A stretch of DNA of 64,000 bases from Arctopsyche grandis (taxonomy: Eukaryota > Arthropoda > Insecta > Trichoptera > Hydropsychidae). The stretch spans positions 33,957,986 through 34,021,985 of the forward strand of contig NC_135355.1 in NCBI RefSeq assembly GCF_051622035.1. The letters are read 5' to 3'. This document shows, piece after piece, positions 545 to 54,200 of the stretch; the first letter of the stretch is position 1; each line of letters starts with the position of its first letter. A program made the translations under genes and the position numbers. The notes under the pieces were generated by a model, which was not told the DNA's origin, ran no database searches, and saw only the letters and a list, made by a program, of their open reading frames with translations.

Positions 545-1022
545 CGAATAAAAGGCGCATTTATTATTTATTATTTATTTATTTTTTACATATAAACCAG
601 GAAGGCCTTACAGGTAAACCCCAATGCGCCTTCCTGGCCAATTACAAATTACAATTACAATGCAGCAATTTTATTACAAGTCGTTGAATTACGAGACACT
701 GAAAAACTCGCAAATTAACGAGACGTCTATGAATTGTATATAAATTTTATTGTACATTAATCAATCTCAAATAGTGGTGACATAGTATGTAGGTAGGAAG
801 GATTTTTTTAGCCAAATTTTAAACGGGAACCATTTCAACAATGAAATCAGAGAAAAATTAGCAAACTCTGATAGCAAACGATCGACCTGGAGTCACAAAT
901 ATCCAAGTCTGACCAGCAGCACTACAGATGTACTAAGAAAAATACTTTTCAATCGAGGTCAGCTCATGTGATCGAACCCGGCGCCTCTCGACGCTAAGCA
1001 GAAGCTTAACGACCGAGCTTAT
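545..1022 (-). mobile_element. Full-length tRNA-headed SINE (family A) with 3' hairpin
   Basis: Read on the minus strand from about 1022 there is a tRNA-like head with a B-box-like GGTTCGATCAC. A core containing GATCGTTTGCTATCAGAGTT and GTTGAAATGGTTCC follows, then a body, then a perfect 10-bp hairpin (597-637) and a TAAA-rich tail. The same head-core order is seen near 7824-8057, 19886-20350 and 52370-52795. The head is degenerate, so this is a SINE and not a tRNA gene. Confidence 0.75.
597..637 (-). other. 3' terminal hairpin of SINE A
   Basis: Arms CCAGGAAGGC (597-606) and GCCTTCCTGG (628-637) pair perfectly around a 21-nt loop. On the minus strand the loop begins GCATTGGGG and ends CCTGTAAG. 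It sits just before the A-rich tail, where LINE-type reverse transcriptases recognise their RNA. Confidence 0.8.
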
Positions 1023-1084
1023 TTATACGAGCGCGCGCCTATAAATTACCTTACACTGTATTTACATAAATATAACATGTAACT

Positions 1085-51200: not shown

Positions 51201-54200
51201 CTTTTGTTGTCAAGTGACATTCTGTCCACGGACAGATCTAAATAATTTTAGCATCAGTCGTATTTGACGCTTGGTGCTCGACGTATGTCCGATAAAAACT
51301 TCTCTGTTTGTTTATATTACTCGCAAGATGGGCAAGCATCGGTAAAAATTGCACAACACATTCAAAAACACACAATAAACAACATGGGACACATTTTTAC
51401 AAGTAAATTGATCCGATTGTATTCCGTGCGATGTAGCGTATTTATAGAGACGTACCGCGTAAAATCGACAACAATTATTTATTCGTAAGGGCCCCTCTAT
51501 TCTTATTACATGTATTTATTTTGACAATTTGTTTTTATCAAGGACGATCAACATCAGTATCAATATGCTATTATCACCGAATAATGATATAGCATTGTCG
51601 TTTTAAATTGCTTTTTATTTACGCCCTGAATGTGTTTTGTCAGTAAAAAAAAATGTACTCTTGACAATGCCAATAAAAACCGGTCGTTTTCAATTATATT
51701 TGATGCAGAGAAAGTTAATTTTTTTTAAATTTCATTTTGACGCGACTCGATTGCATCATGCGTTTGTATCTATGTATGTATTATATATCATTAAGCTGTG
51801 CTAGTCCTCTTTTTTCGTATTGTTTTCATTACATTCGTCATCATTATTAAGAAATCGATTAATTGTGTATTGTCCTGAACTACGTTATATGCTATTTATG
51901 TCTGGTTTATCTACACATTTCATGTACAACAGCTGATTAGACGAAAATCGATAACAACTACATATGTATGTACGTACGTAAACTCACATCAAATCGCTCA
52001 TATAATACATACACGTCTGATATCGTTTATTTTCATTTTGCTTCGGATTCTTTATTTGTTCAAAATTATGTTTCACTTTCACCTGTGTATACAAATATAT
52101 TACTTTTCGTACCAAAATTTTCGTCAAAACCAGATCTTTTGCGTTGTATAATAACTGGTCTATTGGAAGGAAAGTTCGCTGTTGAATATTTTGAGATACT
52201 TAATGCTAATTTCAATATGAAAATGGATTTCTTTTTACATATAAAAATAATTAATTATTAATTATTTTTAATTTGAGATTGTCCATGTTCTATGTTTTTC
52301 CACTCGTTCATTTTTTGTTCAACCCAAAGTTGTCATATTATTTACTAGCATTAATACATAAATACGGCTCGGTGGTTGCGTTTATGTTTAGCACCGAGAG
52401 GTTACCGGGCTCGATCCCGTGCTAATCTTTAATACTGCTGGTCAGGCTTGGATATTTGGTACTCCAAGTTGATCGTTTCTTATCAGAGTTTGCCAATTTA
52501 TCTGATTTTATTGTTGAAACGGTTCCTCCATCAAATTGGCAAAATCCATCCTACCCGCTATGTCACAAATATCTGAATTTGATTTATGTACAATATGTAA
52601 AAAATTATGTACAAGTCTAAATCCATGGATGTCTCTATGGATTAATTAATTGGTAATTTTGTGTTCTTCAGCCTTTCGAAATACAGCGTAATAAAAATGC
52701 TGCAATGTTTGTAATTAATTGTCTAGGAAGGCGCATTGGGTCTTCCTCTTGGGCCTTCCTGGTATATATCTATTTAAAATAAATATAAAATAAATCATAT
52801 GTGCCATATCGGGAATTACCCCCCAAGTCGACATATGTACATATATGGTTAGATTATTTTTATACATACGTACTAACAATTTTTTAAACAACAGTGCATA
52901 GAATACAATATAGACATATATGGACAATCTACAAATTTTTTGATACTCGATTAGATTGATACTAGGTAGCGTGTTTTTATAAGTTTCAACAAATTCGAGA
53001 TACTATTGTTGCGTAACGGGTGGGTTCAGGATCCAAATGAAAAGCCAAAGTCGCTTTACAACATTTAGTCAACACCCACAAAACCGTTGCTGACTTCAGA
53101 ATATCTGATCTAGCTTGTGTACCTCCTTATAAAGGACAAGTTGCGCAGCACAGCTTCCCCAATCCGTTGGTGTGTCTATTGTCTAGGCACTTAAGTTCGG
53201 GCACTTACTGAGTCGCGTTAGCCTAATCCGTGGTCTCTACTTTTTACCTACGAATCTTTTACCACTTAGACAGTGGATATTCTCTCTCTCATGTTCCCAC
53301 GTTACACTATTATCGTATTAATTCGAATTTGAGAGAAACTGGGCGAAGGATACAGATTTATCGGATCCGTCACAACAATTACGCTGGAAATATCAGAAAA
53401 TTTACTAGGAAACAGTCGATCTGTGTTTTAATAACCACAAGATCTCACCAGCGGCGAATTTGGCCAGGACTTAAACCCACAACCTCTCTACTGGTATACA
53501 ATAGCCCTACCAGTGCACAACGATGTGGCTTTTGAATTTATATATCAACTGTCTGAGTGCCGTGGTCATTTCTATCGTCTGGGATCCGGTGAACGATCTA
53601 CCTCCACTCCTTCTGGTCTTGTGTCAAGTTGAAAGCAGCGATTAGGAACGAACCCGTCACTTCTTCAATTTGATCTGACCCATCTTATGGGAGACCGTCT
53701 TCTCGTTCGCCTTCCCTCTAGTGTTCCGGTGACTACCATCTTCTCTAGACTCTCCAAATCCTTTCTGGCAACCTGGTCAAAGTAGGAAAGAATCCCTTTT
53801 CTACATGTTGTGGAGATTTTCTCTGAAACTGTCAGCTCTTTGTGTATGGAGATGTTCTTGCGTTTTGTGGTCTCCAGCCTCCACATTTCGAAGGCATCTA
53901 ACATGTCCTTTTCTCTCTTTTTTGGCGTCCATATCTCGACTCGACATACAATGCACTGGAGATCACCAGTAATCACACCAGACAGATTTTCGTTTTTTTT
54001 CACTGTATCTAGAACGGTTTTTCCATATCTTCGTCAGACTAATCATCGCCATTCCTATTCTTCTGTGGACTAAATCATATTTATTGTAATTACATTGAGT
54101 ATACCAAAATTAATGATAATTGAATTAAATCTGATCAGATTCATATCGATTACACTAGGTGTATTGATTTAATTGCTTGTTTTTTTTCTACGTGCACTTA

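Follow-up and report, generated by a model that had tools for sequence, protein, structure and literature searches.

Do LINEs and SINEs (long and short interspersed elements) that end in hairpins with a similar loop and unlike stems owe this ending to selection on RNA structure? The question is raised by a 64,000-nucleotide stretch of the Arctopsyche grandis (Trichoptera) genome (contig NC_135355.1, positions 33,957,986 to 34,021,985), hereafter referred to as the window. In a preliminary description made from the letters of this window, four such hairpins were assigned to one LINE family and one SINE family, and their stem changes were taken as strong evidence for such selection. We addressed the question by analyzing the window together with its source assembly. 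The analysis established the anatomy of the hairpin, its linkage to LINE 3′ ends, its sharing with SINEs, its covariation, and the presence of two tails on one SINE body; the reading that fits these results best is selection on RNA structure. The strong part of the evidence comes from two further LINE families (LINE-C and LINE-D) and from SINE families that were absent from the earlier description.

Hairpins at Retrotransposon 3′ Ends in the Window

All four hairpins were located, and they are real retrotransposon 3′ ends. With their flanking pairs, they span positions 595–639 (−), 2943–2987 (−), 13582–13625 (−), and 52721–52764 (+), and the exact core GCATT(A/G)GG occurred four times in the window, each time at one of these hairpins. 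Their folding energies ranged from −22.2 to −26.4 kcal/mol, with z-scores of −4.4, −4.8, −3.4, and −6.1 for the hairpins at 0.6, 2.9, 13.6, and 52.7 kb, respectively; when each hairpin was shuffled 200 times, none of the shuffles folded as well or better for three hairpins and one did for the remaining hairpin. The fold comprises an outer stem of 10–13 bp, an internal loop, and an inner helix of 3–4 bp. Thus, the loop of 20–21 nt described previously is not a plain loop, as it contains the internal loop and the inner helix. No Rfam family reached its gathering score in a scan of the window.

The stem was, as described, alike in three copies and rewritten in the fourth: its core is GGAA/TTCC at 597, 13584, and 52723, with one wobble each at the latter two, and TTGT/ACAA at 2945. 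The hairpin at 595–639 (stem GGCCAGGAAGGC/GCCTTCCTGGTT, followed by a TAAA-rich tail) belongs to a SINE-I copy at 545–1020 (−), which consists of a tRNA-like head, a central domain, and a LINE-B-type hairpin tail. Positions 929–562 of this copy aligned at 72% over 397 columns with a second SINE-I copy at 52365–52795 (+), the hairpin of which has one U·G wobble within its 10-bp core; the outer limits of both copies were set by eye. The rewritten stem (GGCCATTGTGGC/GCCACAATGGTC, followed by (TAAA)n) is that of LINE-A, a 5′ truncated copy of which has the C-terminal end of its open reading frame 2 (ORF2) at 3339–3701 (−); a 989-aa frame exists elsewhere in the genome, and the same hairpin was observed behind LINE-A in loci L070–L072. 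The hairpin at 13582–13625 (stem GGCCAGGAAGGC/GCCTTCTTGGTG, with one G·U in the core, followed by an A-rich tail) is that of LINE-B, the ORF2 C-terminal end of which lies at 14122–14493 (−), with a 979-aa frame elsewhere in the genome. Save for one wobble and the outermost pair, the SINE-I stem is identical to the LINE-B stem.

The inventory of four was incomplete. A fifth hairpin at 8947–8989 (−), with the stem AGCACACTCGCT/GGCGAGTGTGCT, was also found by a blind stem scan and ends a SINE-IId copy at 8947–9440 (−), in which a tRNA-like head different from that of SINE-I is combined with the same central domain and a LINE-D-type tail. The sixth, likewise overlooked, is a decayed D-type remnant at 13151–13194 (−) that retains 7 of 12 pairs in a SINE-II-type copy (13151–13445, −).

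Linkage of the Hairpin to LINE and SINE Ends across the Genome

We scanned the source assembly (475.7 Mb, 189 contigs) with the pattern GGCGCATTRGG-N2-8-CCTGT-N1-4-GCC and obtained 8,124 matches, compared with 0 for the reversed control; the pattern misses the commonest LINE-B form among the fetched ends, GGTGCATT, which lacks a C that it demands. Loci were fetched from the first of 100 places listed, all on one contig (8 loci, then 20 + 20 stretches). The first 28 fetched loci and the window provided 36 hairpins, 15 with the A-type stem and 21 with the GGAA stem. Nine of the A-type stems were located behind a LINE-A C-terminus, and the other six lacked any match apart from distant SINE fragments in L014 and L025, more than 550 nt upstream; a SINE body directly before the A stem was found at none of these 15 places. 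The GGAA stems were directly behind a SINE body in 19 cases, behind LINE-B in one, and behind nothing in one, and not all of the 21 are independent, as L015 and L016 gave identical matches.

A directed fetch of LINE 3′ ends confirmed in other copies that the LINE reading frame and the hairpin are linked. The hairpin was present behind the C-terminus of LINE-B in 15 of 17 fetched ends, of LINE-A in 3 of 3, of LINE-C in 8 of 9, and of LINE-D in 11 of 11 (weak in L078 and L080). The two LINE-B misses are L059, which ends just before the expected hairpin place, and L060, which passes into other DNA in a TA microsatellite; the full-length LINE-B copy in L052 does likewise. These three copies speak against a fixed link in those copies and are compatible with insertion or truncation. 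Separately, a repeat reading HHHHLQP..IHCWMK was observed both at the LINE-B break in L052, behind the TA microsatellite, and in the window at 26006–26452 (−).

Stems with A or C at the first core position and T or G opposite numbered 21 genome-wide, some of them representing single changes that turn G·U into A-U; this low number indicates that, beyond the two main stems, there is little variation among stems of the A and B types. The matches in the viral (1) and other genome (2) contig collections were rejected as chance, as no stem was seen by eye beyond the three pairs that the pattern demands.

Four LINE Families with One Loop Grammar

What had been described as one LINE family is in fact two, because the ORF2 proteins of LINE-A and LINE-B are only 37% identical over 962 columns. 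The A/B switch of the stem therefore separates two distantly related LINE families and does not represent subfamilies re-pairing the stem within one LINE/SINE pair, as had been proposed. Among LINE-A, -B, -C, and -D, of which LINE-C and LINE-D are known here from their C-terminal parts only, the C-terminal proteins are 33–47% identical. The Pfam domain RVT_1 was matched by LINE-A (1.7e-27) and LINE-B (1.8e-27), and Exo_endo_phos by LINE-A (6.9e-07); LINE-B had no Pfam endonuclease match, and its ORF2 aligns to LINE-A through the endonuclease part. In the isolated C-termini of LINE-A and LINE-B from the window, Pfam found nothing, and a CENP-P match on a third LINE fragment (E 0.14, below its cut-off) was discarded. 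By sequence, the best solved relatives of LINE-A are LINE-1 ORF2 proteins over the reverse transcriptase, a match that does not place its clade.

The 989-aa frame contained at least 16 of 150 scored LINE-A matches (first-look candidates, 9,021), and the 979-aa frame at least 13 of 150 scored LINE-B matches (first-look candidates, 6,857). Large groups of LINE-A and of LINE-B C-termini had one identical score each, several of them in full-length open frames, as would be expected for recent activity. The LINE-C and LINE-D copies were more diverged, with frequent stops. In L070 (295–651, +), a LINE-A copy has apparently been inserted in a LINE-C copy, just past the C-terminal coding region of the latter.

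When the fetched loci were searched by tblastn with the proteins of LINE-A, -B, and -C, relatives of these LINEs were found that had other stems with the same loop grammar. Ten stretches behind such relatives were scanned, and five contained a hairpin assignable to the LINE (L027, three in L028, and L012, where it is 850 nt from its LINE); the other five contained no hairpin or only that of a SINE. LINE-C ends in GACTAGTGTGAC/GTCACACTGGTC or close variants and LINE-D in AGCACACTCGTC/GACGAGTGTGCT or variants. Between the 3′ untranslated regions of LINE-A to -D (one copy per family), blastn at E 0.01 revealed no interfamily match save 26 nt between LINE-A and LINE-C.

Covariation of the Stem

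Comparison of the four LINE stems, each represented by a single sequence, revealed interfamily differences at 9 of 12 pairs; standard pairing is kept in 47 of 48 cells, with the outermost pair of LINE-B as the sole exception. LINE-A and LINE-C differ by two two-sided and three one-sided changes, all of them paired, and LINE-C and LINE-D by nine two-sided changes with none broken; the A/B difference is one block of four neighbouring pairs in which both arms have changed. The claim of covariation was sound; the four copies on which it had been based show a single 4-bp switch only, the SINEs having the LINE-B stem and LINE-A the rewritten one.

We next counted 192 stem cells by tool in 16 hand-chosen hairpins from LINE-A, -B, and -C and three SINE types. 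Four D-stem rows (43 nt) were excluded from the 20-row alignment, in which MAFFT had set the LINE-D 3′ arm one column off, and the D stems were counted by script instead. The stem cells were paired in 93.8% of cases, compared with 71.2% after column shuffling and 26.6–47.2% when slid by 1–3 columns. Two-sided changes affected 8 of 12 pairs, which was matched by 3 of 500 shuffles, and the covariation score was 0.710 versus 0.249 for shuffled columns (0 of 500 as high); over five measures, 0 of 500 shuffles were as high on three and 3 of 500 on two. Given no structure, RNAalifold recovered 11 outer and 4 inner pairs, 9 of these 15 with two-sided changes (LINE-D excluded). Among 17 chosen representatives, a hairpin's own arms formed 11.4 of 12 pairs on average (range 10–12), compared with 6.95 of 12 for arms from different families (best of three registers, 208 combinations), where the highest value, 11, was reached by A with C; random arms of the same composition reached at least 11 pairs in 114 of 200,000 trials. 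At 97 of 117 places with the loop grammar, at least 10 of 12 pairs formed (best of three registers).

LINE-D and SINE-IId differ by one compensated pair. Pair 11 is U-A in 8 of 10 LINE-D copies, U·G in the LINE-D relative L083, and C-G in 19 of 20 SINE-IId copies. These counts cover the 10 of 13 LINE-D loci and the 18 of 20 fetched SINE-IId ends, together with L014 and the window, that fitted an ungapped criterion (L074, L078, L080, L105, and L111 were dropped); L014 was counted as SINE-IId by its tail alone, having no SINE body before this tail. The SINE-IId copies carry scattered one-sided mismatches. More generally, random mismatches in other copies had been named beforehand as evidence against the proposal; they do occur, scattered in individual old copies, while the family-level stem stays paired, and they are not a fair refutation because such copies are no longer under selection.

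SINE Families and Tail Exchange

The commonality of LINE and SINE 3′ ends was upheld: LINE-B and SINE-I agree at 89% over 55 columns, and LINE-D and SINE-IId at 87% over 61 columns (one copy each), with the stem-loop and then a short repeat tail common to both kinds of ends. The SINE-IId body of the window also matched five fetched copies that end in the LINE-B-type hairpin (two in L030 and one each in L015, L016, and L029). One SINE body, SINE-II, thus bears two different LINE tails, of LINE-B type and of LINE-D type. The D-tailed form is a real family: of the 42 genome matches listed, 40, among them the window copy, continue from the body into the hairpin, and 36 of these 40 reach the hairpin end or nearly so (40 candidates scored of 2,845). 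In a third SINE (L020, L014), the same central domain is joined to yet another head and to a D-related hairpin.

SINE-I, -II, and -III have different tRNA-like heads and share a central domain of 69–106 nt with 75–87% identity around CGATCGTTT...AGAGTTTGC, as compared in window copies 9440–8947 (−), 1020–545 (−), and 52365–52795 (+) and in L020 at 1470–1950 (+). Four SINE copies were scanned for an RNA polymerase III B-box pattern, which occurred in SINE-IId (GGTTCGATTCC) and SINE-III (GGTTCGAGTCC) and not in the window SINE-I copy or the SINE-IIb copy; the tRNA likeness of the heads was otherwise judged by eye.

A Candidate Recognition Element and Its Alternatives

We proposed that the hairpin is very probably the 3′ recognition element of a "stringent" LINE group that SINEs have borrowed. 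The 3′ end of the LINE transcript would fold into an outer stem of 10–12 bp, the internal loop, an inner helix of UGGG/CCUG type, and a short apical loop, followed by an A-rich or TTA-type repeat. By analogy with other systems, the ORF2 protein may bind this folded end and would then prime reverse transcription at the nicked target. The loop and the inner helix would be kept because they are read in sequence. For the outer stem, pairing itself would suffice, leaving its letters free to change through compensated and wobble substitutions. In this genome, each of the four LINE families has a stem of its own, and SINE families with different heads and a common central domain have the tail of one LINE or another. 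The SINEs presumably depend on LINE-B and LINE-D-like enzymes for their mobility.

Several observations weigh against this interpretation. Among the loop-grammar places, 20 of 117 have fewer than 10 pairs, and 9 of 117 fit no family stem, with 3–9 pairs; two of these, L009 and L042, retain the loop although their stem pairs poorly. The fetched loci included no SINE with a LINE-A or LINE-C stem. The independent stem events are few (four LINE families and a few sub-lineages), and the covariation statistics use no tree, with copies within a family not being independent. The representatives and the 3′ register were picked partly with pairing in view, and because the SINE-IId copies were retrieved by their similarity to the window copy, their agreement is partly a product of selection. 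A single template switch could also account for the 4-bp A/B difference when this is taken alone.

This last point leads to a rival explanation, in which one arm is rewritten with the other as its template during snap-back or template-switch copying, so that complementarity arises without selection on folding. One such switch could produce the block of four neighbouring pairs in which both arms differ between A and B. However, the wobble intermediate G·U in LINE-B, the U-A, U·G, and C-G series in LINE-D, its relative, and SINE-IId, and the mixture of two-sided and one-sided paired changes between LINE-A and LINE-C all argue against it; moreover, individual copies lose pairing, which indicates that no mutational process maintains it. 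We therefore consider this explanation very improbable. That the hairpins are chance structures in unrelated look-alike repeats could be entertained while only four copies in 64 kb were known, and it is refuted, its probability being negligible, by the 8,124 genome matches against none for the reversed pattern and by the fixed place of the hairpin at LINE and SINE 3′ ends.

It is likewise improbable that the hairpin was selected for a role other than recognition by the reverse transcriptase, such as RNA 3′-end formation, stability, export, or packaging. The element sits just before the tail, and sequence cannot tell these functions apart; however, it is common to tRNA-headed SINEs, presumably transcribed by RNA polymerase III, and to LINEs, presumably transcribed by RNA polymerase II, and the equivalent hairpin of the L2 clade is reported to be bound by ORF2 and needed for retrotransposition (PMC4176376). 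Within the recognition-element interpretation, an unlikely but conceivable extension is that the inner module, comprising the internal loop and the UGGG/CCUG-type helix, is a group-wide docking tag and the outer stem a family address, which LINEs rewrite to shed SINEs and which SINEs follow or replace by tail exchange. If so, the four stems and the partner switch of SINE-II would be a record of a contest between LINEs and SINEs.

Comparison with Known LINE/SINE Pairs

Shared LINE/SINE tails are general, with 58 SINEs reported (PMC3747384). In maize and sorghum, L1-lineage LINEs share a 3′ hairpin of approximately 50 nt with ZmSINE2, ZmSINE3, and sorghum SINEs; the loop is conserved, the stem is variable with compensatory mutations, and the LINEs are far more diverged outside the tail (Ohshima 2013, PMC3747384). 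The A. grandis families resemble these in the conserved loop, the compensated stem, and the sharing between LINEs and SINEs. The monocot elements, however, belong to the plant L1 lineage, with a UCU loop and a CGAG 3′ flank, whereas the present families come from one animal genome, have a different loop that encloses an inner helix, and include four LINE families, each with its own stem. None of the hairpins listed has CGAG behind the stem; UCU does occur inside some apical loops (UUCUU, GUCUU), so only the CGAG flank clearly fails the monocot type.

The L2-clade pairs ZfL2-1/ZfL2-2 (PMC4176376) and HAmo SINE/HAmoL2 (PMC2653535) likewise have a 3′ stem-loop, shared by LINEs and SINEs, before a short tandem-repeat tail. 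For the zebrafish elements, PMC4176376 reports that the stem is exchangeable, one exchange lowering the rate to roughly half that of the wild type, and that the loop is read specifically, since loop exchange or stem disruption abolishes or sharply cuts retrotransposition; the stem-loop is bound by the region between the endonuclease and the reverse transcriptase, and binding was lost in W344A and kept in W325A. The W-x18-W spacing in this linker also occurs in LINE-A (at 339) and LINE-B (at 342), where it provides a possible lead toward the tail-binding region, although it is a weak marker because each LINE has it twice (second occurrence at 274 and 280, respectively). The likeness to the L2-clade pairs concerns the tail and the Trp spacing; the structured loop is larger here. 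UnaL2/UnaSINE1 is a further L2-clade LINE/SINE pair of this type. The GGAUA loop of HAmo and UnaL2 has no counterpart here, as no GGATA occurs among the hairpin loops listed; the apical loops are UUUA, GUUUA, UUCUU, GCAA, and variants.

Among insects, HaSE1/HaRTE1.1 (PMC3272025) and PxSE5/PxLINE1.1 (PMC8010984) also involve SINEs headed by a tRNA or 5S sequence that share central domains and have taken their tails from LINEs. The main text of PMC8010984 uses neither "stem-loop" nor "hairpin", and no such structure is mentioned in the abstract of PMC3272025, the body of which was not searched. At title level and in open-access sources, the literature matches listed did not mention covarying hairpins shared by LINEs and SINEs of insects. 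In CORE-SINEs, a single SINE body is likewise combined with the tails of different LINEs, which there belong to different LINE clades; here, the tails come from related LINEs with one hairpin grammar.

A conserved loop and a compensatory stem in a shared LINE/SINE tail are thus already known from plants, and loop-specific recognition from fishes; unusual here are the number of stems and the presence of one SINE body with two LINE tails in one genome. The use of one hairpin grammar with different stems by several SINE families and no fewer than four LINE families constitutes a natural experiment on how the enzyme reads its template. This experiment could separate the contributions of pairing, stem letters, and loop letters, and two of the LINEs have copies with a long open ORF2.

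Other Features of the Window

A LINE fragment at 1076–1546 (+) was considered as a hairpin partner and rejected, as its 3′ end is different and TTATTATT-tailed. In the region at 1076–1984 (+), a further LINE C-terminus carries a TTATTATT-type tail, and its 3′ end is duplicated in tandem over 206 nt (94%); no hairpin of the studied type was found there. At 42044–45898, a long terminal repeat retrotransposon, which we take to be BEL/Pao-like, has end stretches of 300 nt that are identical to each other, carries a minus-strand gag-like frame, and lies at the end of a LINE-like element with frames from near 37839. A tandem array of a 53-bp unit at 46696–47523, with central copies 96–99% alike, is open in three minus-strand frames. 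Finally, 24887–25048 and 62186–62347 form a 162-nt inverted repeat, 91% complementary, with its arms 37 kb apart.

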